Part shown: positions 21,462 through 33,149 of the stretch, piece by piece | Numbering within the stretch: position 1 is the stretch's first letter | Layout: each line of letters begins with the position of its first letter | IMG/VR virus record: IMGVR_UViG_3300044681_000147 | Span: 1-34,535 of that record | DNA: 34,535 nucleotides | Strand: one strand, 5' to 3' | From: a virus | Made by a program: the position numbers and the translations under genes | Notes under the pieces: model-generated | Database searches by the model: none | What the model saw: the letters and a program-made list of their open reading frames with translations, nothing else | What the model was told of the DNA's origin: nothing

Positions 21462-21821
21462 TCACCTTGTAACAGACGGTGAAACTTGAATCTTTCCTTG
21501 TAGTACTCTTTCAACAATGGTATTATCGCTCGAGTCCTGATAGGAAATTTCAACGTCATAGACGTATCTGCCCCTAGAACTCAGAGCATCAGTTTGTGCA
21601 TTTGTGAGGGAAAGGATTAAGACCCCATCGGTTGCAGGGTCAGCGATAGTGGCAGTGAAGTCCACGACTTCATCACTATCCGTAGAATTGTAATTTCTTT
21701 TCATCTTAGCGGCCGCACTGTGTCCAGTCAAATCTTTAACGGAACCGTCTTGTTCCACAAGATTTAACTCAATCGCAACGTCTGCGCCTTGATCTATAGT
21801 TAGGTCTTCGTAATGTGCCAT
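21462..21821 (-). CDS. Ig-like small tail/baseplate protein
   Basis: A 119-residue protein with an immunoglobulin-like beta pattern: DLTIDQGADVAIELNLVEQDG, then VKDLTGHSAAAKMKRNYNS, FTATIADPATDGVLILSLT and GRYVYDVEISY. This resembles the N-terminal domain of upper-baseplate/fiber-adaptor proteins of several phages, an observation of pattern only. The start codon and its GGAA ribosome site lie inside the 3' arm of an 18-bp hairpin that spans the late promoter (21821-21882), implying a strict late-only translation control. It is first in a short operon with the next two genes. Confidence 0.65.
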   Translation of the reverse strand: MAHYEDLTIDQGADVAIELNLVEQDGSVKDLTGHSAAAKMKRNYNSTDSDEVVDFTATIADPATDGVLILSLTNAQTDALSSRGRYVYDVEISYQDSSDNTIVERVLQGKIQVSPSVTR

Positions 21822-21888: not shown

Positions 21889-22596
21889 TTATTCGGAACT
21901 AATTTCGTACACTAGGTCTTCTTGAAGGTCTTCTGAAGTTTCTCTCCAATCCCAAATAAATGAGACGGTCAATCTCCAGCAATCGGTCTGAGCTGCATGA
22001 TACAAAAGTTTATCTCTTTCGTGATAACCACCAAAATATCCCGCTTTACATTGCCAACCTTTTACATCCTCAAGAGTGACAATCTGTCCGTTATCTGGAT
22101 TGCGATATTTAAAGTGACCTTCTCCCGTTTCAGACCACGTGCAGATAAGGTTGTATGCAAAAGCGTTTGCATTGTTGTGCCATGAGATATATCCGCCCGG
22201 AGGATAGAAACAGAATAGAGCCGCATTTTTCGCACCAAGAAAATTAACCAACTTGGTATTGCACTCTACAATTCTATTCATCAATTTCAGACGATAATCA
22301 GGATTGTTTTTTCTGGCATAGTCTGAAAAACGATTGTGATCCATCTGGTGCGGTTTAAAACCATAACCAACTAAATGATCAGGGAACCCTTCATGTTTAT
22401 CTCCACTATCAACGATATATCTGAGATAGTCTGTAGACATCCACTTCTCACGGGTCTCTCTATCATTCTCATTTTCACAATGAAGATGGTTGTTTTTAAC
22501 AAAATCTTCAATATCATCGGTAAGAATTTTTCTACAATCTTCCAGAAGTTCCAAGAATTCTGGATTCTTGATAGGAATATCTTTCATTTGACTCAT
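21889..22596 (-). CDS. 2OG-Fe(II) oxygenase, Asp/Asn beta-hydroxylase-like
   Basis: A 235-residue protein with a double-stranded beta-helix core in its second half. Visible motif: FCFYPPGGYISWHNNANAF (128-146) with H140 as first iron ligand, then H200 (LLYHAAQTD) as second, and R208 (WRLTVSF) as probable 2-oxoglutarate anchor. The usual acidic ligand of H-x-D/E is replaced by Asn (H140-N-N142). Aspartyl beta-hydroxylases also work without the carboxylate ligand, so this does not imply inactivity. It would use 2-oxoglutarate and O2 to hydroxylate a protein side chain. Its ATG overlaps the glycosyltransferase stop by 4 bases. It is last in a three-gene early-type cassette. Confidence 0.72.
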   Translation of the reverse strand: MSQMKDIPIKNPEFLELLEDCRKILTDDIEDFVKNNHLHCENENDRETREKWMSTDYLRYIVDSGDKHEGFPDHLVGYGFKPHQMDHNRFSDYARKNNPDYRLKLMNRIVECNTKLVNFLGAKNAALFCFYPPGGYISWHNNANAFAYNLICTWSETGEGHFKYRNPDNGQIVTLEDVKGWQCKAGYFGGYHERDKLLYHAAQTDCWRLTVSFIWDWRETSEDLQEDLVYEISSE

Positions 22597-23321
22597 AAAA
22601 TATAACCGTCTTTATTCAATCCACAGGAGTAATGTCTAACAATAACTTCGCCTTCAGGTCTGGTAAGAGCCCAGTTCCAAGCATTATAATAATTCCACCG
22701 AAGATCGTCATCAAAGATTCCAATCTTAAGGTCTTTATATTTCGGTTCTTTCTCAGTTAACCACCACAAGGAGAATTGATCCCATGAACGGAGACTTTCC
22801 CCATAACCATCGGGCCACCATTCACGATCCATTTGTCTACGAGTGAGTTCCCACCAATCATCCATAAACTCACGAACGATAGGTTTGGTCATATCATAGA
22901 GACAGACACCCCCACACAACCAAAACTTATCCTTACCGTATGGAGTATCGAATTCCCACTCAGCATAGGAATAACTTCTTTCCTTGGTAAGTTCCGTAAA
23001 GACCATATCATGATCTTTCATCTCATCCCAAACTTTTGCGATGTCTTCATGTTCAACTTCCATGTCGGCATCAAGATACATGGTGATGTCATAGGGAGTT
23101 TTAGCCATCCCCCAAAGTTTAGCACGGTAATGATCATTACACCAAATAACTTGATCAAAGATATCACGATGAGTTTCTTCGAACATCCACTCTTCACAGA
23201 AAAGAGTGATCTTTGCATCTTCGTAATAGTCTAGAATAGACTCAGCAAGATTGATTGCGTATCGATAGAAGTTAATCTTACGAGAGGCAACAATTACAAA
23301 ACCCTTACTCTTCTCCGACAC
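22593..23321 (-). CDS. Glycosyltransferase, GT-A fold, DxD-containing
   Basis: A 242-residue protein with a Rossmann-like start (GFVIVASRKINFYRYAINLAESI), strand ITLFCEE and MYLDADMEVEH (81-91). The last contains the D84-A-D86 metal/nucleotide-sugar motif of GT-A enzymes. A later WLCGGVCLYD (~134-143) and SWDQFSLWWL (~178-187) resemble the acceptor-side segments of glycogenin/GT8-like families, and VRHYSCGLNKDG closes the protein. It has no membrane segment, so it acts in the cytoplasm. The acceptor could be host surface precursors, phage DNA or a virion protein. The neighbouring hydroxylase and sequon-rich repeat proteins favour the last. It overlaps the upstream gene by 17 bases. Confidence 0.78.
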   Translation of the reverse strand: MSEKSKGFVIVASRKINFYRYAINLAESILDYYEDAKITLFCEEWMFEETHRDIFDQVIWCNDHYRAKLWGMAKTPYDITMYLDADMEVEHEDIAKVWDEMKDHDMVFTELTKERSYSYAEWEFDTPYGKDKFWLCGGVCLYDMTKPIVREFMDDWWELTRRQMDREWWPDGYGESLRSWDQFSLWWLTEKEPKYKDLKIGIFDDDLRWNYYNAWNWALTRPEGEVIVRHYSCGLNKDGYIL

Positions 23322-23778
23322 TCTCAGTTTCCTCTACTTTTTTCAATTCATCCATAAGGATCATAATAGCATAAAGGTTTACTTCAACCTTATTCTTTGC
23401 TCTACGTAGTTTAGATTTAAGAGGACGGTTTTTAGAGTCTTTAATCTCAGGAACTTCGAAGGCTTCTAGTTTGTAATTGAAGAGTTCTTCCAACTTACGA
23501 GCTTTAGCGTGTTCAAGTTGTTTTTGTTTCTCTTCTTCAGACTCTCGTTTCTTACGGATATTTCGTTCATCCGTATTTGCATTGATGCTCTCTTCACCCA
23601 AAGCTTCCACAACTTCATTGAAGTCTGGATTTGGATTGCCATCTTTATCAGTCTTACGGAGTTTCATCACCTGTCGAGTGATTCTACCCACGTCATCTTC
23701 AATCTCAAGGATGCAGTTCAGCATTTGTTTTTCGCCGGTTTCCCAGAATGCATTATCCATCCATTTTCTATAACTCAT
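23305..23778 (-). CDS. Charged coiled-coil protein of unknown function, first in the cassette
   Basis: A 157-residue, Lys/Glu-rich, largely helical protein. A structured start (YRKWMDNAFWETGEKQMLNC) is followed by an RKTDKDGNPNPDFNE loop, a long charged coiled-coil (about 65-100, RNIRKKRESEEEKQKQLEHA), a second helical part and an acidic end. I do not recognise the family. AGGAG precedes the ATG. It is the first gene behind the near-consensus sigma-70 promoter and also has a late-like box (TATAAATT). It overlaps the glycosyltransferase gene by 17 bases. It may be an assembly partner for the modifying enzymes or unrelated. Confidence 0.65.
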   Translation of the reverse strand: MSYRKWMDNAFWETGEKQMLNCILEIEDDVGRITRQVMKLRKTDKDGNPNPDFNEVVEALGEESINANTDERNIRKKRESEEEKQKQLEHAKARKLEELFNYKLEAFEVPEIKDSKNRPLKSKLRRAKNKVEVNLYAIMILMDELKKVEETESVGEE

Positions 23779-23857: not shown

Positions 23858-26800
23858 TCAAGCCGAACGCACGTATAATGTGTATGTCTGAATCGTTGAC
23901 GATATACTATCGATTGTTGTACCTGTATAGTTTCCTACAAACGTTCTTTGATAATTACCAAGGAACCCACGAGTATAGTCACCAATGAAGTCCCTTGCAT
24001 AGTTGCCCGTGTAATCTCCAAGGAAGTCCTGTGTCGATACACGAGTCGAGATACGAGAATAAGCTGAGTTTCTTGTTCTCGTGAAAGCCGAAGTTCTGGT
24101 ACGTGTAGAGTCTCGTGTCGAGTTGCGAGTATATTCGCCAACATAATCTCGTGCATAATTCCCTACGAAATCGCCAGCAAAATTAGTAACCCTATCACGT
24201 GAGTAGTTACCTTCAAAGTTACGAGTATAGTCCCCAGTATAATTACCAGTATAATCACCAAGGAATCCACGGGTGTAATCACCAATGAAGTTTCTTGAGT
24301 AATTGCCAATGAAATTACCAGCGAAGGTATTTGTACTGTTTCGTGTATACTCACCAAGGAACCCACGAGTATAATCACCAACGAAGTTCTGTGTAGTAGT
24401 ACGTTGACTAACACGAGTATATGTTGACGATCTGGCTCTGGTGTAGTTAGAAGTTCTGGTACGTGAATATGCAGAGTATCTTGTTCTCAAAGAAACTCTG
24501 GTGTAGTTACCAGTGTAGTTACCAGTGTAGTCACCAAGGAACCCACGAGTATAGTCGCCAATGTAGTCGCCAGCAAATCCACGTGTGTAGTTACCAGTAT
24601 AGTCTCCAGCAAATCCTCTGGTATAATCGCCAATAAAGGTTCTTGAATAATTACCAACGAAGTTCCTTGCATAATTCGAATAACGAGTTCTGGTTGATGT
24701 TCTGGTATAGGCTGACACTCTTGTACGTGTTGATGTACGTGTCGAAGTTCTGGTGTAGTCGCCTGTACCAACATAATCACCAACATAATCTGTGGTGGTA
24801 TTTGTAAAATCACCCGTATACACGCCAGCGTAGTTACTTACTCTGGTATAGTTCGCTGAATAATCGGTAGTCGCATTAGTATAGTCGCCTACGAAATTAC
24901 CAGCGTAATATAAAGTACGAGAATAATTCAAAGTATAATCGGCTTCACCAGCATAATCGCCCACGAAATTACCAGCGTAATAACCTACACGAGTATAGTC
25001 TCCCAGATAATAGAGAGTACGTGTGTAGTTACCTGTGTAGTATAATGTGTTTGCATAGTCACCAGTGTAGTAAACTGTTCCACTATAGTCACCAGTGTAG
25101 TATACGGTTCCACTATAGTCACCAGTGTAGTATACGGTTCCGCCATAGTCACCCAGATAATACAGAGTAGCAGCAACATAGTCACCAGTGTAATAGACCG
25201 CACGTGCGTATGAATTAGTGATCGCACGGGCCACACTTCTACTAAACCAAGAACCATATGGAGGTGGTGTTGACCTAACATACCAAGAATTTCGTGTATA
25301 GTATAGAGTTCTGGTATAATACGCTGCGCCAATCCTAGTACGTTGATAGTTTGTACCAGCAACAGTTCTAGTACGAGTATAGTTTACTCCAAGTGCTCTA
25401 TTACGAGTATAGTTTACTGCGGCTGCTCTAGCACGAGTATAGTTTACTCCGACTGCTCTATCACGTGTGTAGGTTACACCAACTGCTCTAGCACGAGTGT
25501 AGTCTCCGGTTCCAGTTGTTGTTCTTTGATAGTTGAGTGTTCGGGTACTGGTACGTGTAGAAGTTCTCGTATAGTTGGCAGGCCCAATATAGTTACCAAG
25601 ATAATTGGCAGTTGGGGTTGAGGTTCTAGTAGAAGTTCTCGTATAGTTGCCAGGCCCAATATAGTTACCAACGAACCCTAATGTTCTTGTATAATCCCCA
25701 GTGAAGTTCGTGGTATAGTTGCCAGGCCCAATGTAGTTACCGGCATAATTGGTTGTGGCATTTGTGTAGTTACCAAGGAAGTTACCGGCATAATCTCCCA
25801 CATAGTTACGGGAATAATTCCCAACATAGTCACCAGCGAATCCTCTAGCATAGTTAGAAGTTCTAGTACGACTGTATGCTGAGACTCTAGCCCTAGTATA
25901 ATTTGAATAACGAGTTCTAGTACTAACACGAGTATAAGCAGAAATTCGTGTACGAGTACTTGTTCTAGTATAATTAGAAGTCCTAGTTACCTGAGAGTTT
26001 AATAACGATACTCGTGTGTAGTTACCAGTATAGTTGCCAGCAAATCCTCTGGCATAATCACCAAGGAACCCACGAGTATAATCGCCTGTAAATGTTCTCG
26101 CATAGTTACCAGTATAGTCACCAAGATAACTAGACACACGTGTACGAGTATAATTGGATACACGGTTTCGACTGTAATTGCCGATGAAGTCACCCACAAA
26201 GTTTGTGACTCTATCTCTTGAATATGTTGAATTACGAGTTCTAGAATAGTTCGATATTCTTGTACGTTGTGAATTTCTCTGACTATCTCTAGTATAATTT
26301 GATGTACGTGTTCTAGCGTAATTGCCGATAAAGTTACCGGCAAAGTCAGTTACCCTATTTCTAGTGAAAGTTGAGACTCGTGTTCTAGAATAGTTTCCGA
26401 TATAATCGCCAATATAATTGCCGGCATAATCACGAGCGTAATTACCAATAAAGTCTCTGGTATAATTACCAGTGTAATCGCCAGCATAATTCGAAGTACG
26501 AGTCCTCTGCGAAACTCTGGTATATGTTGAACCACGAGTTCTGCTGTAAGTCGAAGTTCTTGTGCGAGTATATGCAGAATTTCTATTACGGGTATAGTTA
26601 GTTTCGACCGTTGTCTTTTTTGTATCTGTGGCCGTTCCAACCGCAGTCCAAGTACCGGCATCGGTTGGAGCTCCTTGTGATGCTGACCGCAGTTGATATG
26701 ATCCGATATTTCCAGACGTTGCTCTTAAGTTACGAACAAACGCACCAATGGTATCAGAGATATCACTATCCAACATTTCTTTAAGATCACCACCGTCCAG

Positions 26801-27370
26801 TCCTACTGGACGAACGGTTGTTGGAGCAGTCATTGCTGTTCTTTGATAAATGTTATAATTTACTGTAGTCCCATCTGTTTGGGTATCAGAAAAAACATTA
26901 GAAAGAGCAACACCATAATCTGCGCCAGGCGAAGAACTACCTAAACGATAGATGCCAGGATATGAGGATGTTGCAATTCTAGAATTGATTCTTGTTGCCA
27001 ATGATTGCATATCAGCATCAGGCATTTCATAGAAACTTGGAGTACCACCACCATCAGTGTTATATCCAATAGGACGTAATGCACCAGCAGAAGGAGATTC
27101 TGTTCCAGCCTTCTGATAAACTGTTGTGGTTGTAGAACCAGACGTGATAGCAGTGGCGGGGTGAGTACCCACCGCTTGATTGTAAAACGTGTTTACGTAT
27201 GTACCAATAGATGTATTACCTGTGGCGGTAAGAGTTATATCACTCACACCTGTTGTTGCGGCAAGGTTATCCTTACCGACAACATAAGCAATATAGTTCT
27301 CTTCCGAGGTGGTCATCTCTTTGAGATCACCATTCACCCCAGATAATTTTAACGGTGTATTAGAAGACAT
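23858..27370 (-). CDS. Giant tetrapeptide-repeat virion-associated protein A
   Basis: 1170 residues. The N-terminal cap (~1-255) is a soluble-looking domain with NTSIGTYVNTFYNQAVGTHP and two YQ-type modules (TVYQKAGTESP, YNIYQRTA), ending GTWTAVGTATDTKK. Residues ~256-1145 are built almost wholly of four-residue units [G/R/S]-[N/D/T]-[Y/F/R]-[T/S/A/I], as in GNYTGDYTRDFIGNYA. This gives a Tyr/Arg/Asn/Thr/Gly composition nearly free of Lys, His, Met and Cys. A central island (near residues 680-720, YVRSTPPPYGSWFSRSV) breaks the repeat. The end TYTLYVRSA is shared with the paralogue. GGAG precedes the ATG. Its place among fiber genes suggests a virion fiber or surface protein; it is not proven. 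I know no established function for such repeats. Confidence 0.75.
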   Translation of the reverse strand: MSSNTPLKLSGVNGDLKEMTTSEENYIAYVVGKDNLAATTGVSDITLTATGNTSIGTYVNTFYNQAVGTHPATAITSGSTTTTVYQKAGTESPSAGALRPIGYNTDGGGTPSFYEMPDADMQSLATRINSRIATSSYPGIYRLGSSSPGADYGVALSNVFSDTQTDGTTVNYNIYQRTAMTAPTTVRPVGLDGGDLKEMLDSDISDTIGAFVRNLRATSGNIGSYQLRSASQGAPTDAGTWTAVGTATDTKKTTVETNYTRNRNSAYTRTRTSTYSRTRGSTYTRVSQRTRTSNYAGDYTGNYTRDFIGNYARDYAGNYIGDYIGNYSRTRVSTFTRNRVTDFAGNFIGNYARTRTSNYTRDSQRNSQRTRISNYSRTRNSTYSRDRVTNFVGDFIGNYSRNRVSNYTRTRVSSYLGDYTGNYARTFTGDYTRGFLGDYARGFAGNYTGNYTRVSLLNSQVTRTSNYTRTSTRTRISAYTRVSTRTRYSNYTRARVSAYSRTRTSNYARGFAGDYVGNYSRNYVGDYAGNFLGNYTNATTNYAGNYIGPGNYTTNFTGDYTRTLGFVGNYIGPGNYTRTSTRTSTPTANYLGNYIGPANYTRTSTRTSTRTLNYQRTTTGTGDYTRARAVGVTYTRDRAVGVNYTRARAAAVNYTRNRALGVNYTRTRTVAGTNYQRTRIGAAYYTRTLYYTRNSWYVRSTPPPYGSWFSRSVARAITNSYARAVYYTGDYVAATLYYLGDYGGTVYYTGDYSGTVYYTGDYSGTVYYTGDYANTLYYTGNYTRTLYYLGDYTRVGYYAGNFVGDYAGEADYTLNYSRTLYYAGNFVGDYTNATTDYSANYTRVSNYAGVYTGDFTNTTTDYVGDYVGTGDYTRTSTRTSTRTRVSAYTRTSTRTRYSNYARNFVGNYSRTFIGDYTRGFAGDYTGNYTRGFAGDYIGDYTRGFLGDYTGNYTGNYTRVSLRTRYSAYSRTRTSNYTRARSSTYTRVSQRTTTQNFVGDYTRGFLGEYTRNSTNTFAGNFIGNYSRNFIGDYTRGFLGDYTGNYTGDYTRNFEGNYSRDRVTNFAGDFVGNYARDYVGEYTRNSTRDSTRTRTSAFTRTRNSAYSRISTRVSTQDFLGDYTGNYARDFIGDYTRGFLGNYQRTFVGNYTGTTIDSISSTIQTYTLYVRSA
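23930..26605 (-). repeat. 12-bp (4-codon) repeat tract A
   Basis: Some 220 units of 12 bases in register with codons, for example minus-strand GGTAACTACACT-type and GGTGACTATACT-type words and CGT/AGA-rich alternatives. Synonymous sites vary widely between units while the amino-acid pattern holds, so the tract is maintained by protein selection and not by fresh slippage. Exceptions are local near-identical 30-base units near 25051-25170. Confidence 0.85.
25051..25170 (-). repeat. 30-bp tandem repeat coding a 10-residue YYTGDYSGTV unit
   Basis: Two back-to-back identical 30-base copies (25081-25110 and 25111-25140) are flanked by diverged copies on both sides. Each codes for the decapeptide YYTGDYSGTV (circularly permuted), so the four-residue register is replaced here by ten. 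The identity points to a recent duplication. Confidence 0.85.
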
Positions 27371-27393
27371 AATTTACTCCAAATCCTTACGAG

Positions 27394-27401
27394 TATTTAT
27401 G
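27394..27401 (-). promoter_or_regulatory. Late-promoter variant (CATAAATA)
   Basis: The minus strand reads CATAAATA, one base from the T4 late consensus. It overlaps the stop codon of one repeat-protein gene, 24 bases before the ATG of the next at 27370. Position is right for a promoter of repeat protein A. Confidence 0.5.
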
Positions 27402-30135
27402 CATATCTAACATACAAGGTATATGTTTCAATCGTTTCTATTCCCGACCCAATAGTGGTTCCAATATAATTTCCTACGAACCCACGGTTATAATCCCCCG
27501 TGAAGGTTCTACTGTAGTTCCCGACATAGTTACCAAGAAACTCTCCAGTATAATTTCCTACATATTCACCGATAAAACTAGAAGTTCTTGTTCTAGAATA
27601 TGAAGACACTCTGTCTCTACTGAAATGGCTCAGTCTGGTATAATCTACTAAAGTTATCCCGTCCGTTCCGATATAATTACCAATATATCCCTGCAAACTA
27701 TTTCTGGTGTATTCCCCGATATAGTTACGAGAATAGTTTCCGATAAAGTCTAGAGATGATGTACGTGTTGAAGTTCTGGTGTATGCAGAATTTCTATCCC
27801 TAGTGTATGTAGATGCTCTATTTCTAGTAAAAATGGAATCTCTTGTTCTGGTAAATGTCCGTGAATAATTACCAGTAAAGTCTCTACTGTAATTGCGAGA
27901 ATAATCACCCGCAAAATCTCGTGTAAAGTTTCTTGAATAATTACCAATAAAGTCTCTACTGAAATCAGCTGAGGTGAAATCACGATTATAGGACGAAACC
28001 CTAGTTCTTTGAAAGTACCTAGTGTAGTTACCAGTGTAATTGCCAGCAAAGTCTCTACTGTAATTAGAGGTTCTAGTTTGAGTACGCAATCTCTGATAAC
28101 TTCTTAAATAGTTACCAACAAAGTCCCCAATATAGTTACCAACAAAGTTCCCAATATAATCGCCAAGATAACCACGTTGATAATTTGAAGTTCTGGTTCT
28201 ATTGAAATTTCTAGAATAATTAGAATTTCTTGTTCTGGTGAAATTTGCAGTGTACCAAGTTGTTACGGGAGTATTTACGGCACTATCACGGGTGAAATTC
28301 CCAGTTGAAGTACGGTATCTTGGGAATGGTTCCCCGCCTGCCCAACGAACATAAGCCCAGTTAACATACCAAACAGCTCGTTGATAGTCCCCAGTATAGT
28401 ATGTTGTGTAAGTTTGGGTTCTTGAATAAGCCAAAGGCGTAGTAGACGATCTAGTCCTAGTGAAATTCAACCACTCGCTGTGCCAATAGACGTTCCAACC
28501 GCCGGCGATTCGATAATATGTTGACACACGAGCATAATCTCCCGTATAATCGATAGCCATATTACGATTGTAATCGCCAATAAACCCTCTAGAGTAATTA
28601 CGAGAATACTCACCAAGAAAATCTCTAGAGAAATTAGAAATTCTAGTACGTTGAAAGTTAGTATTACGGTCTCTTGTGAAAGCCGAAGTTCTTGTTTTAA
28701 GAATTTCTCTCGAATAATCGCCAGTATAGTTACCCGCAAAATCTCTAGAGTAATTACTTGTTCTTGTACGTGTTGATGTACGAGTATAATTACGAGCATA
28801 ATTGCCGATAAAATCTCTAGAATAACCAGAGGTTCTTGTTCTATTATAATTCGAAGTTCTTGTTCGTGTATAATTTCTAGAATAATTAGAAATTCTAGTT
28901 CTAGTGAAAGCCCTAGAATAGTTTGAACCTCGTGTTCTAGTGTAAGCAGAATTTCGATCTAGAGTAAATGTTGCAGTATAGTTACCAGAAAAAGTTCTGG
29001 AATAATCGCCCGTGAAGTCTCTAGTATAGTTACCAGTGTAATCGCCAGCATAATTACTTGTTCTGGTACGTGTAAACGCACGAGCATAATTGCCCGCATA
29101 GTTTCCTATGTAATTACCAACATAGTTCCCTTCAAAACTTCTGGTGTAGTTACCAATATAGTCTCTAGCGTAATTACCCGCATAATCCCCAGCAAATGCA
29201 CTTGATCGTGTACGAGTGTAATCCATCGAATAGGTTGACGATCTATTGCGATAATATGTCGAAACACGTGTACGAGTGTAATCAACTTCAGATGTTGATC
29301 TTTTCTTGTTGGTTGCAGTTCCGACAGCTCTCCAAGTACCGGCATCGGTTGGAGCTCCATCGGTGCTTGATCTTAATTGATAAGAACCAACGTTTCCTGA
29401 TATTGCACGTCTTGTCTTTGCACGTTGACCCAAGGTAAATTTAATCGCACGATCCGTCATCGTGGTGATACCTTGGAATGTTACACCATCACTGGAATCT
29501 CTTTGAATGCAAGCAAGATTTGCAACAGTACCATCACTGTCTACAATAGAAGATGGAGCGGCTTGATTTTCTCTTCTCCAAATATGATAGTTTACATCAG
29601 TATCTTCCGTTACGGTATCCGTGAAAACGTTATTGATGTACTTTGAGTAATCTGCGCCAGGAGATGCAGAACCCAGTTTAAATTGACCGATATAATCGGA
29701 CAGAGAGATACGTCCATTTAACCTATCGACCAGAACATTCATGTCCGAGTCTGCCATTTCGTAGACACCCTCAGACCCAATACTTGTAGGCCCATCCGTG
29801 GTAGGATTGAAGTATCCAATAGGTTTATGGAAGTCAGAATCGGATTCGTCTGCTGTACCAGCAATCTGATACAGTGTGGTTGTTACTGACCCAGACGTAA
29901 TCGAAGAGGCAGGATGGGTTCCTACCGCTTGATTATAAAACGTGTTTACATATGAACCAATAGACGTGTTTCCTGTAGATGTGAGTGTAAGGTTACCCAC
30001 ATCACCAGAATCAGATTCGACAAAGTGTGTACCGATCAAATATGATAGGTAGTTTTCTTCTGTTGAACCGAGTCTTTTTAAATGGCCTTGATCCGGAGAA
30101 TGTAACTTTAATGGCTTACTCTTCGCAATTGGCAT
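27397..30135 (-). CDS. Giant tetrapeptide-repeat virion-associated protein B (paralogue of A)
   Basis: 912 residues with the same plan as its downstream neighbour. The cap (~1-280) begins KSKPLKLHSPDQGHLKRLGS and contains NTSIGSYVNTFYNQAVGTHP and GNVGSYQLRSSTDGAPTDAG. A tetrapeptide-repeat body follows (~282-885; GNYIGNYAGNYARAFTRTRT and similar), then a Trp-rich island in the centre (YRIAGGWNVYWHSEWLNF, YVNWAYVRWAGGEPFPRY). The end is TYTLYVRYA. The body is Arg-richer and shorter than in protein A, so the two differ mainly in repeat number and island. AAGGATAGG precedes the ATG. Same reading as for A: probably a virion fiber/surface protein, function unknown. Confidence 0.75.
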   Translation of the reverse strand: MPIAKSKPLKLHSPDQGHLKRLGSTEENYLSYLIGTHFVESDSGDVGNLTLTSTGNTSIGSYVNTFYNQAVGTHPASSITSGSVTTTLYQIAGTADESDSDFHKPIGYFNPTTDGPTSIGSEGVYEMADSDMNVLVDRLNGRISLSDYIGQFKLGSASPGADYSKYINNVFTDTVTEDTDVNYHIWRRENQAAPSSIVDSDGTVANLACIQRDSSDGVTFQGITTMTDRAIKFTLGQRAKTRRAISGNVGSYQLRSSTDGAPTDAGTWRAVGTATNKKRSTSEVDYTRTRVSTYYRNRSSTYSMDYTRTRSSAFAGDYAGNYARDYIGNYTRSFEGNYVGNYIGNYAGNYARAFTRTRTSNYAGDYTGNYTRDFTGDYSRTFSGNYTATFTLDRNSAYTRTRGSNYSRAFTRTRISNYSRNYTRTRTSNYNRTRTSGYSRDFIGNYARNYTRTSTRTRTSNYSRDFAGNYTGDYSREILKTRTSAFTRDRNTNFQRTRISNFSRDFLGEYSRNYSRGFIGDYNRNMAIDYTGDYARVSTYYRIAGGWNVYWHSEWLNFTRTRSSTTPLAYSRTQTYTTYYTGDYQRAVWYVNWAYVRWAGGEPFPRYRTSTGNFTRDSAVNTPVTTWYTANFTRTRNSNYSRNFNRTRTSNYQRGYLGDYIGNFVGNYIGDFVGNYLRSYQRLRTQTRTSNYSRDFAGNYTGNYTRYFQRTRVSSYNRDFTSADFSRDFIGNYSRNFTRDFAGDYSRNYSRDFTGNYSRTFTRTRDSIFTRNRASTYTRDRNSAYTRTSTRTSSLDFIGNYSRNYIGEYTRNSLQGYIGNYIGTDGITLVDYTRLSHFSRDRVSSYSRTRTSSFIGEYVGNYTGEFLGNYVGNYSRTFTGDYNRGFVGNYIGTTIGSGIETIETYTLYVRYA
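27480..29290 (-). repeat. 12-bp (4-codon) repeat tract B
   Basis: About 150 four-codon units of the same consensus as tract A, interrupted around 28230-28550 by non-repeat sequence coding the Trp-rich island. As in A, units differ mainly at synonymous positions. Confidence 0.85.
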
Positions 30136-30152
30136 TACTACCTATCCTTACG

Positions 30153-33149
30153 TTATGTATTTAACAGAGTGCCATTTTCGTCATAAATGTTAATCACTCT
30201 ACTGGCAAGATGGTTTAAGGCCGACACGATACTTGATGTTGCGCCCGCACTATCAAAGAATGCTGCAAGGTTTGACAATGAACCAATTCTACTGTCCAGA
30301 GTCCCCGCACTGTCTTGTAAGTCTACAAGATCGGCGGCAAGAGCATTCAGTGCAGTGATGTGGGTAGTCTTCGCACCAGCAAAGTATACATCCAAATCTT
30401 GCAAAGAACCAATCGAATCGTGTAGTTCATTAATAGCAGCGGTAAGGTTTGTTGCTTTAGTAGCAAGAGCGCCTGCCGTTGCCCCAATGAAACCTTCATT
30501 GGAATCCATCTCACTTTCAAGGGTATTTAGTCTCCCCGCATGAGAGACTAATTTAGTAGCATCAGAGTCTAACTGACTGTGCAATTCATTAATAGCACCA
30601 CCCAAGTGATTAGATGTTGTGTCGAGTGTAGTACCCTGTACGATGTTTCCGACAAATGTTGCTTTTGCAGCCGAGTCAAACGTAATGTGGTTTGCATTTC
30701 TGTTCTGGATGATGAGGTCACCACCAGAGTTTCTTAATGCACCAAACTGTGTACCATCATCTTTGAGGTAGATATAAGCCCCACCAGCATCAAGAGTGAT
30801 AGTAGAAGAAACATCAAGGTTCAACACACCAGTTCTTGAAATGGTTGTGCCACCCATTGTAAGGTTGCCACCTGTGGTTACTGTACCACCAGTCGTTACG
30901 TTTGCACCAGAGAATGTCAGTGCAGTAGTCGTACCAGACTTGACGATCAAGTTGCCAGAGGTATTTGACAACGCACCGTATTGTGTACCATTGTCCTTAA
31001 GTAATACGTCAGCTCCATCAGCATCAAGAATAATATCGGTATCAGCATCAATAGTGAAGTCGCCTGTACTCTTAACTGAACCCGCAAAGGTAACAGAGGC
31101 ATCAGAACTATCGCCTGTCATTACCGTGGTAGAACCTGTTTTTACAACAAGGTTTCCACTACTGTTTGTCAATGCACCGTATTGTGTACCGGCATCTTTT
31201 AGAAGAACATCAGCACCATCTGCATCAAGAATGATATCACCCGCAACATCAACTGTCAAGTTGCCTGAAGGTACATCAATCTCTTTATTTGTTCCTGCAA
31301 TGAACTGGAACTGTGTAGTGCCTCCATCGTTCAGGTAAACATTACCACCGTCTGCATCAAGAGTAATGTTTGAGGCCACATCAACTGTCAAGTTGCCCGA
31401 AGGTACATCGATCTCTTTGTTGGCTCCTGCAATAAACTGGAATTGAGTTGTACCACCATCCTTAAGATAGGTGTTACCACCATCAGCATCCAACGTGACA
31501 TCACCTGAGACATCAACGGTTAAATGACCAGTTCTAGAAATTGTTCCGTTCGAATTGAAATCGTATGACGCACTATCTGCATCTTTGAAGGTAACGTTTC
31601 CGCCATCAGCGTCAAGGATAATGTCACCACCAGCATCCAGTTTGATTGCTGAAGATGCATTAACTCTTACATCACCGGAATTCGCATTTACTTCTACACC
31701 ATCACCAGCAGTGATAGTTGCAGAATCTCCGGATGTAATGGATGCTGTTGTACCTGTTGTGACATCATAAGTTGTTCCGGCTGAAATACCATATGATCCA
31801 GTCGCACTGTCAAGAACATTTCCATTTACGGTTGTTGTTAAGTTACCTGTAACATCTAAAGTATTAGTAGTACCAAGTCCATATTCTAACCTTGCGACAC
31901 CACCATCTTTGAAATCGATATTCGCACCATCTGCATCTAACACAATGTTAGCGGATGCATCAATGGTTACTGTTCCAGTTCTGGCAATAGTACCTGAATT
32001 GAATGTGAAGTTTGTGGTAGCCCCATCCTTGAAGTAGATGTTGTTTCCATCTGCGTCAAGAGTGATGTTTCCCGAAATGTCGAGAACTAAATCACCTGTA
32101 CGTGAGACTGTACCATCTGTGTTAAACTGATAGTCTGTAGTACCTCCATCATTGAAGTACCAGTTACCACCATCAGCATCAAGGATGATATTTCTTGCGG
32201 CATCTACGACAAAATCACCAACTAAAACATTGACAGATGCTGAATCGCCTGTTATAATAATAGCTGAGTCAGCGGAGAGAGAATATACCCCATTCGTGAC
32301 AACAGTATAATCGCCAGTTACCGATTCACTATAGAATCCAGATACGGTCTCTGTGAGGTTACCTGTAACATCTAATGTGTTGGATGCACCTAAGCCATAT
32401 GCAAAACGTGTAGTACCCGCACCTTTTAAATCTACATTTAAAGTACCAGCATCTAATACGATATCACCAGAAACATCATATGTCAAGTTTCCGGTTACTG
32501 TTGTAGTATTGGTTGCACCAAGGGCATAGTTGAAACGAGTTGTTCCGTTACCTTTTACGATAAGGTCATTGCCACCGGCATCCAGAGTGATGTCGCCTAC
32601 CGCATCAACAGTATATGCACCCGTTGTGGTGAGAGTAGTTGCGAGAGAAGAACCAAGTGTTAATGTTGCATGAGTAGCGGAGTCTTTCTTGAAGACAACA
32701 TCACCACCATCAACATTGATTTCTAAATCACCACCACCATCGAAGGTGAAGTTGGTTGCAGTGTTAATCTTTTTAGTAGAGGCATCAAAGACGGCCTCAA
32801 TCTCATTGATGGCATCTTTAATTGTATTTGAAACAACATTAAGTGAGTTTGAGTCACCACCGATAAAAGCATCGATAGCATTGATTGCACCAACAAGACC
32901 ACCATCACGGACTGCATTGATTGCATAGGAGGTGTAGTTAAGATCATTCTTAACGTCACCACCCCCCGCACCGTGAAGGTCAGAGTCGAGTTCGTTTAAA
33001 GCACTAACTAAGTCAGCTGAGTCTGACCTCTGACTATTACGTGTAGTAGTAGTCAATAAATCAGGATCACCAACGTTATTAGAGATAGTGTTAATATTAT
33101 CTCTAAGTGTCTTAACCGTATCTGTAATTGCTGTAATCGGGCGTGCCAT
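30153..33149 (-). CDS. Repetitive fiber-like structural protein (DADGGN repeats)
   Basis: 998 residues. The start (MARPITAITDTVKTLRDNIN) has a helical segment with NALNELDSDL-type coiled pieces to ~120. Residues ~125-790 repeat a ~35-45-residue beta unit containing D-I-T/I-L-D-A-D-G-G/A-N/D-V/I-x-x-K/N-D-G/A-G-T (for example GDIILDADGADVLLKDAGTQ). The C-terminal ~200 residues return to coiled-coil-like helices (AINELHSQLDSDATKL, HAGRLNTLESEMDSNE). It ends RVINIYDENGTLLNT, matching the giant fiber end. The architecture (helix, beta-repeat shaft, helix) suggests an elongated trimeric fiber. A possible late promoter lies 150 bases upstream within the preceding small gene. Confidence 0.78.
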   Translation of the reverse strand: MARPITAITDTVKTLRDNINTISNNVGDPDLLTTTTRNSQRSDSADLVSALNELDSDLHGAGGGDVKNDLNYTSYAINAVRDGGLVGAINAIDAFIGGDSNSLNVVSNTIKDAINEIEAVFDASTKKINTATNFTFDGGGDLEINVDGGDVVFKKDSATHATLTLGSSLATTLTTTGAYTVDAVGDITLDAGGNDLIVKGNGTTRFNYALGATNTTTVTGNLTYDVSGDIVLDAGTLNVDLKGAGTTRFAYGLGASNTLDVTGNLTETVSGFYSESVTGDYTVVTNGVYSLSADSAIIITGDSASVNVLVGDFVVDAARNIILDADGGNWYFNDGGTTDYQFNTDGTVSRTGDLVLDISGNITLDADGNNIYFKDGATTNFTFNSGTIARTGTVTIDASANIVLDADGANIDFKDGGVARLEYGLGTTNTLDVTGNLTTTVNGNVLDSATGSYGISAGTTYDVTTGTTASITSGDSATITAGDGVEVNANSGDVRVNASSAIKLDAGGDIILDADGGNVTFKDADSASYDFNSNGTISRTGHLTVDVSGDVTLDADGGNTYLKDGGTTQFQFIAGANKEIDVPSGNLTVDVASNITLDADGGNVYLNDGGTTQFQFIAGTNKEIDVPSGNLTVDVAGDIILDADGADVLLKDAGTQYGALTNSSGNLVVKTGSTTVMTGDSSDASVTFAGSVKSTGDFTIDADTDIILDADGADVLLKDNGTQYGALSNTSGNLIVKSGTTTALTFSGANVTTGGTVTTGGNLTMGGTTISRTGVLNLDVSSTITLDAGGAYIYLKDDGTQFGALRNSGGDLIIQNRNANHITFDSAAKATFVGNIVQGTTLDTTSNHLGGAINELHSQLDSDATKLVSHAGRLNTLESEMDSNEGFIGATAGALATKATNLTAAINELHDSIGSLQDLDVYFAGAKTTHITALNALAADLVDLQDSAGTLDSRIGSLSNLAAFFDSAGATSSIVSALNHLASRVINIYDENGTLLNT
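31246..31510 (-). repeat. 132-bp tandem duplication in the fiber-like gene
   Basis: Two adjacent copies of a 44-residue unit starting IDVPSGNLTVDVA and containing DGGTTQFQFIAG lie at about 31246-31377 and 31378-31509 with high DNA similarity, well above that of the other repeats in this gene. This indicates a recent in-frame duplication. Confidence 0.75.

Follow-up and report, generated by a model that had tools for sequence, protein, structure and literature searches.

The window, a virus record of 34.5 kb (34,535 nucleotides), carries T4-like phage head and tail genes; PHROG matches were obtained for capsid, protease, portal, tube, sheath, terminase, baseplate, and fiber proteins. Two complete open reading frames (ORFs) on its minus strand encode protein A (positions 23858 to 27370; 1,170 amino acids [aa]) and protein B (positions 27397 to 30135; 912 aa). 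The original prediction described two giant proteins composed of four-residue units over about 890 and 600 residues, and the tetrad regions that we delimited agree with these figures (A, approximately residues 259 to 1150, 892 aa; B, approximately residues 286 to 892, 607 aa). The upstream gene (30153 to 33149) encodes a 998-aa repetitive protein with a VgrG-like DUF2345 match; this gene adjoins the tetrad genes in two-copy loci and is absent from most single-copy loci.

Loci of this type contain one tetrad gene or two in tandem, with conserved neighbors (Table 1). A 75-aa structural protein is encoded upstream, and a 157-aa protein, a glycosyltransferase-like protein, an oxygenase-like protein, and a fiber-assembly protein follow downstream in that order. 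The oxygenase-like protein had no profile match. The glycosyltransferase-like and oxygenase-like genes come after the tetrad genes in almost all loci of sufficient length, and their products may modify the fiber, a suggestion that we regard as speculative. The tail-fiber setting of the original prediction was borne out by synteny, as the tetrad genes lie among baseplate and fiber genes together with an assembly factor.

TABLE 1 Features of the tetrad genes and their downstream neighbors in the window
Feature	Positions	Strand	Basis
Tail-fiber assembly protein (T5 L-shaped-fiber type)	21462..21821	-	phrog_3304, E = 7e-17; synteny
Oxygenase-like protein, WHxN...H...R	21889..22596	-	Conservation pattern
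Glycosyltransferase-like protein, conserved DxD	22593..23321	-	Weak Glycos_transf_2 match below cutoff; synteny and motif
Conserved 157-aa neighbor, possible assembly factor	23305..23778	-	Adjoins tetrad genes in all loci that extend this far
Protein A C-terminal strand (TIQTYTLYVRSA), predicted to close the base module 3 hairpin	23861..23920	-	Kept in all complete members; AF2 models of relatives
Protein A return arm, residues 721 to 1150, complements outgoing arm	23921..25210	-	Register score +145
Protein A tip, residues 688 to 720 (RNSWYVRSTPPPYGSWFSRSV)	25211..25309	-	Longest non-tetrad stretch, centered at 0.51 of repeat region
Protein A outgoing arm, residues 259 to 687, tetrads	25310..26596	-	Tetrad HMM; mirror alignment, one register over 259 to 535
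Protein A base domain, residues 1 to 258	26597..27370	-	Sequence alignment; AF2 of paralogue B high confidence there
Protein B C-terminal strand (ETIETYTLYVRYA), predicted closing strand	27400..27459	-	AF2 strand 882 to 910, pLDDT 84 to 96
Protein B return arm, residues 629 to 892	27460..28251	-	Segment scores above other registers
Protein B looped-out unpaired stretch, residues 815 to 840 (YIGTDGITLVDYTRLSHF region)	27616..27693	-	Register shift of ~20, pairing resumes past it
Protein B tip, residues 528 to 628, Trp/Pro-rich (GGWNVYWHSEW...WYVNWAYVRWAGGEPFPRY)	28252..28554	-	Longest non-tetrad stretch, centered at 0.52
Protein B outgoing arm, residues 286 to 527	28555..29280	-	Mirror alignment, three segments
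Protein B base domain, residues 1 to 285	29281..30135	-	AF2, mostly pLDDT >=80; sequence alignment

Autocorrelation revealed a period-4 signal far above chance in both proteins. At lag 4, the z scores relative to 300 shuffles were 10.6 (identity) and 13.8 (aromatic to aromatic) for protein A and 7.4 and 13.1 for protein B, consistent with the predicted aromatic residue at nearly every fourth position. The signal recurred at lags 8, 12, 16, 20, and 24, and family-wide it persisted to lag 60. In 48 nonredundant members, 58% of approximately 8,000 aromatic-to-aromatic gaps were exactly 4 residues and 78% were multiples of 4; Lys, His, Met, and Cys, expected to be nearly absent, made up 0.22, 0.21, 0.13, and 0.01% of the repeat regions, respectively. 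A hidden Markov model (HMM) trained on the family learned the tetrad G/R/S - N/T/D - Y/F/R/S - T/A/V/S (positions 1 to 4), close to the unit [G/R/S]-[N/D/T]-[Y/F/R]-[T/S/A/I] read earlier from the two proteins, and assigned 86% of repeat-region residues to it (approximately 9,100 complete tetrads). Runs without a phase slip reached up to 678 residues. The slips were nearly always of 2 residues (among gaps between [GRS][ND][YF] motifs, 2,897 were 0 modulo 4, 233 were 2 modulo 4, and 62 were odd), as a strand would require if it is extended and its side chains point alternately to either face. The best lag differed among proteins (8, 12, 24, or 28), and a constant count of tetrads in each solenoid turn was therefore rejected. 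At the DNA level, GNY was spelled by nine different 9-mers in the protein A gene, and third codon positions varied most between relatives; such diversified copies and third-position changes indicate selection on the protein pattern. The proteins of the family grow and shrink by tetrad duplication (12-nucleotide-based DNA repeats).

Proteins A and B are members of a large family from marine phages; using a profile of the N-terminal domain, we found at least 135 relatives among IMG/VR contigs. Phage C48C1 (Kyanoviridae) was the sole carrier among 50,697 phage records; its CDS0201 (WJE88074.1, OQ984149), a 10-kb gene for a protein of approximately 3,350 aa, is annotated as a "hypothetical protein." In agreement with the claim that the repeat belongs to no described family, proteins A and B had no useful match in Pfam, PHROG, NCBIfam, or PDB sequence searches. 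The base domain had no Pfam, PDB, or fold match, and a Foldseek search with the two AF2 models described below gave no match below an E value of approximately 1. Nothing relevant was found in the literature on tetrapeptide solenoids, Tyr-rich fibers, or phage C48C1. A scan of a genome collection with a repeat-only query yielded one true relative, L100, whose contig had been binned with a Sphingobacteriales MAG. The remaining matches that were inspected (Gastranaerophilales, Alphaproteobacteria, and others) were unrelated autotransporter-like repeats of the form GGAIYN...NFIGNYA and were discarded. Many unrelated autotransporter-like proteins with GGAIYN...GDFIGNYA repeats are present in Gastranaerophilales and Alphaproteobacteria MAGs (L101 to L166).

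Every complete member that was parsed followed a common plan, with a conserved base domain, hundreds of tetrad residues, and a C-terminal strand, and the C terminus of all complete members was ETYTLYVRxA or a close variant. The base domain comprises three homologous beta-hairpin modules, with a helix after each of the first two. An AF2 model of protein B (single chain, alignment of 33 sequences) folded the base domain at high confidence as three related modules. In this model, the C-terminal strand was predicted to partner strand 268 to 294 of module 3, where modules 1 and 2 have their own second strand, a pairing deduced from the AF2 secondary structure and the module alignment rather than from coordinates. 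The C-terminal strand again closed the base in an AF2 model of a short relative. As the C-terminal strand would thus complete the module 3 hairpin, the tetrads would be an insertion in the hairpin loop. The paired base strands of protein B ran on into the starts of the arms in the model; the arms of both modeled proteins had pLDDT values of approximately 20 to 30 and no structure. We do not take this low confidence as support for any arrangement of the arms, and it need not count against pairing, as a monomer run with a shallow alignment could miss a trimeric fiber.

The two halves of the repeat region proved to be complementary when read in opposite directions. We set the register from the conserved base alone and then tested it along the arms. 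At the base-anchored offset, the Gly/Arg blocks of opposite arms were anticorrelated (mean r = -0.50, versus approximately ±0.1 elsewhere), with Gly-rich blocks on one arm opposing Arg-rich blocks on the other, and r was below -0.4 at the predicted offset in 31 of 42 proteins. The conditional mutual information, given tetrad phase, also peaked at the base-anchored register (0.166 versus approximately 0.033). In this register, positions 1 and 3 lie opposite each other, position 2 lies opposite position 2, and position 4 lies opposite position 4. Approximately one-quarter of the 42 proteins lacked the global register, and most of these contain inserts; L068 and L096 are built of other repeats, and L010 is an unexplained exception. 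In L096 (729 to 2843 and 4122 to 6635), the shared base and C-terminal strand accompany 22-residue NFLGVTPANYSGVRP units. In L068 (7992 to 12263), which also has the shared base and C-terminal strand, one arm (GDFTGDF) is Gly/Phe rich and nearly devoid of Arg and Ser, and the other (NPDAINYTRSS) is Ser/Thr/Asn rich.

Pair counts at this register (4,282 pairs from 25 proteins, which share ancestry) disclosed a marked side-chain preference. The favored pairs were R1:Y3 (1,399 observed, 772 expected), G1:R3 (760, 301), and S1:F3 (406, 127), whereas R1:R3 (4, 293) and R1:S3 (1, 114) were nearly forbidden. Arg is thus paired with Tyr, Gly with Arg or Ser, and Ser/Thr with Phe rather than Tyr. At the level of whole tetrads, the classes GxY:RxR (690 observed, 214 expected), RxF:SxY (362, 47), and GxF:TxF (130, 14) were enriched, and RxR:RxR (0, 66), RxF:RxR (0, 80), and GxY:SxY (1, 126) were depleted; facing classes shared 1.73 of 3.14 bits. 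Controls offset by 24 or 40 residues were flat. Replacing the return arm with that of an unrelated member reduced the information from 0.649 to 0.016 bits, indicating that the match is specific to a protein's own arms. The information at the best register was about the same as that 2 residues off, so that direct and diagonal partners are indistinguishable.

Proteins A and B were scored with pair scores trained without them, using ungapped, phase-aware comparisons with offset controls. A gapped mirror alignment had been tried and was replaced by these scores, as protein B performed no better in it than with foreign arms. In protein A, residues 259 to 535 lay opposite residues 1150 to 874 in a single register over 277 residues, with i + j equal to approximately 1407 to 1408 for mirrored residues counted from Met. 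This register, which was the one predicted from other proteins, far outscored 30 other registers (-159 ± 44; maximum, -65). Protein B paired in three segments, with approximately 26 residues looped out of the return arm near the base; segment scores were +24.2 (versus -40 ± 16 at other registers) and +28.1 (versus -36 ± 17). Near the base of protein B, the sum from the AF2 pairing (268 + 910 = 1178) matched that of the sequence register (286 + 892 = 1178). In larger members, the return arm contains inserted domains of approximately 150 to 340 residues that loop out, with the pairing taken up again on their far side. Phage C48C1 CDS0201 resembles A and B in its base domain, tetrads, C-terminal strand, and neighbors, and its arms pair once inserts are looped out; it differs in being a single 10-kb gene rather than two, and its return arm carries several inserted globular domains. 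A segment of approximately 70 residues in the C48C1 gene (L020, 13995 to 24038) is duplicated almost exactly.

In most of 42 nonredundant complete proteins, the longest non-tetrad stretch lay at approximately 0.50 of the repeat region. This central tip was found for repeat regions of 342 to 3,047 residues, even where it was only 4 to 9 residues long, and was enriched in Trp, Pro, Tyr-Tyr, and Lys/His/Met/Cys. The tip of protein A is bounded on both sides by the end of the mirror alignment, and the tip of protein B is unpaired in it. Identity between relatives fell from base to tip along both arms (0.81, 0.70, 0.55, and 0.52 for A versus L021; 0.90, 0.89, 0.83, and 0.36 for L055 versus L048), as expected of a fiber with a host-contacting tip in mid-chain.

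Irregularities of the repeat were also mirrored. Phase slips had a counterpart on the other arm within 5 residues in 76 of 120 cases, versus 13 ± 5 for rotated positions. Between protein A and L021, indels occurred at matching distances from the base on the two arms (-3 at 296/309, -6 at 388/398, +4 at 420/421, and -1 at 431/438). In 226 comparisons of relatives, which are nonindependent because of common ancestry, 1,589 of 1,869 indels were mirrored (versus 1,052 ± 24), and 446 were mirrored with equal size and sign (versus 119 ± 12). Double substitutions at mirrored positions were enriched too weakly to serve as proof of pairing (ratio of 1.07 versus 0.78 to 0.99) and were set aside. Both the 2-residue phase slips and the mirroring about the middle of each protein had been missed in the original prediction.

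The repeat, central tip, register, code, mirrored slips and indels, base-to-tip divergence, and conserved neighborhood, all established at the level of sequence, lead us to propose that each protein is very likely a giant antiparallel out-and-back structure, namely, a tail fiber whose base holds both chain ends and whose fast-evolving tip lies in mid-chain. The base domain would keep the two ends together, and the outgoing tetrad arm would lead away from the phage to the tip, where the chain would turn. The return arm would then run back in register beside the outgoing arm and lead into the C-terminal strand, which completes the base domain. If the strand is extended, tetrad positions 1 and 3 would share one face, with positions 2 and 4 on the opposite one; the position 1/3 face would carry the inter-arm code, in which GxY is opposite RxR or RxS, RxF is opposite SxY, GxF is opposite TxF or TxY, and RxR never faces RxR. 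We infer that the arms are adjacent beta-strands along the fiber axis. By analogy with T4 gp37, three chains would form a six-stranded needle, in which the partner of an arm may be the arm of a neighboring subunit, and the paired face (Tyr, Arg, and Phe with Gly and Ser) would point inward. At 2.5 to 3.3 Å per residue, protein A (approximately 430 residues per arm) would give a thin fiber of approximately 110 to 140 nm; that of protein B would measure 60 to 90 nm. In the virion, the base would be attached and the variable tip would contact the host.

The T4 gp37 receptor-binding needle, reportedly described by Bartual et al. in 2010, is the closest known counterpart of the proposed structure. 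In gp37, domain D11 (residues 882 to 1009) is inserted in D10 (residues 811 to 881 and 1010 to 1026), with stem arms at residues 882 to 931 and 960 to 1009 and a tip at residues 932 to 959 (PMC6957217). Three chains contribute six antiparallel strands to the needle (PMC9659904), and the small size of Gly921 is needed to accommodate Phe970, which packs on it from another subunit (PMC6957217). The sum of these two positions (1891) falls on the mirror register of gp37, and none of its seven HxH motifs was opposite another His around that register. The tetrad family shares with gp37 a base domain that is interrupted by the shaft and tip and finishes with the C-terminal strand of the protein, two equal arms flanking a central tip, and a complementarity of bulky and small residues between arms in mirror register, which the tetrad code exhibits and gp37 shows as the same tendency. 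Unlike the 50-residue arms of gp37, those of the tetrad family have approximately 130 to 1,000 residues, being about 3 to 20 times longer, and Y/R/G/F/S tetrads replace the HxH-iron core (His, 0.21% of repeat regions). A comparison of the tetrad base-domain profile with gp37 was not significant, and no collar (D10) domain was found by Pfam or PDB fold matching. With the HxH-iron core, the collar, and sequence likeness all missing, the tetrad proteins are considered gp37-like in topology and not members of the gp37 family. The closing strand of T4 gp37 (FNYIVRLA, residues 1010 to 1026) resembles the C termini of A and B (TYTLYVRTA), which may reflect chance or deep ancestry.

Other phage fiber shafts, such as the triple beta-helices of T4 gp5 and gp12, beta-spirals, and collagen-like and coiled-coil shafts, are likewise repetitive, elongated, and encoded in tail-fiber loci. 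In these shafts the chain runs from base to tip once, whereas the tetrad chain would run out and back, with its tip in mid-chain. A stronger proposal, to which we give slightly less than even confidence, is that these proteins represent a new class of fiber, in which a chain recognizes itself through a tetrad side-chain code (GxY:RxR, GxY:RxS, RxF:SxY, and GxF:TxF/TxY) that can be read from sequence and that would set fiber length, branches, and tip in the manner of a nucleic acid duplex. RxR would then do what HxH does in gp37, with anions perhaps caged along the axis where gp37 has iron; the idea that RxR triplets around the axis hold anions is speculative.

The pairing could be real without forming a simple ladder of adjacent strands, if the arms fold separately (e.g., as two side-by-side antiparallel beta-solenoids or coiled ribbons) or if the contacts are between molecules. 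We consider this unlikely. The statistics give in-register antiparallel proximity rather than strand geometry, the two best offsets are 2 residues apart, AF2 left the arms without structure, and the Gly921-Phe970 contact of gp37 is itself between subunits (PMC6957217). However, the 2-residue parity of the slips favors extended adjacent strands, as do the residue-level register over 277 residues of protein A and the continuation of the paired AF2 base strands into the arms.

The beta-solenoid with a four-residue step, akin to pentapeptide repeats, that was first suggested for these proteins now appears very improbable. As in the pentapeptide-repeat (Rfr) solenoids, the repeat is short and strict, and Asn/Asp precedes an aromatic or hydrophobic residue and Ser/Thr; multiples of 4 prevail, and no constant coil period of greater length emerged. 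The tetrads differ in having a period of 4 instead of 5, a 2-residue parity, antiparallel-complementary halves, and Arg at the core-equivalent position, so that RxR tetrads would put Arg in the core; no Pfam match to pentapeptide or other solenoid families was obtained. A solenoid of this kind predicts neither a base-anchored mirror register nor a central tip nor mirrored indels. The amyloid-like fiber raised at the same time fares no better, since it does not predict pairing of the halves in a fixed register, nearly forbidden pairs, a central tip, or mirrored indels.

Just as remote are an intrinsically disordered region of Tyr/Arg "stickers," also among the early suggestions, and a polymer that forms condensates. 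Low complexity, a composition rich in Tyr, Arg, Gly, Asn, and Ser, and low AF2 confidence in the arms would suit either; stickers need no register, yet the fixed base-anchored register, the near absence of Arg opposite Arg, and the mirrored slips and indels demand defined pairing. Least probable of all is that the mirror pattern is a structurally meaningless by-product of inverted duplication or a composition gradient, for although these proteins do change in length by tetrad duplication, inverted DNA does not give reversed protein sequence, single-residue registers are beyond the reach of a gradient, the relation between the arms is one of complementarity and not of similarity, and the signal is lost at offsets of 24 to 40 residues and with unrelated partner arms.

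If the out-and-back reading is right, a widespread, unannotated family of marine phage proteins builds fibers by out-and-back self-pairing with a readable code, in which protein halves are complementary over hundreds of residues and some pairs are almost disallowed. Annotators would then look for the host-contacting part in mid-chain and not at the chain end, and paired insertions would account for the lengthening and shortening of the fibers. The code would also offer a rule set for the design of long protein fibers, and the T4 gp37 needle would change from a 128-residue special case to an example of a general and far longer architecture. On our best reading, the fibers would share the topology of the gp37 needle and differ from it in their length, their unrelated sequence, and a Tyr/Arg/Gly/Phe code in place of His and iron.

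In one metagenomic population (L002, 2676 to 6201, and L025), an A-type gene is interrupted by an in-frame stop (986 + 188 aa), and its close relatives read through this position.
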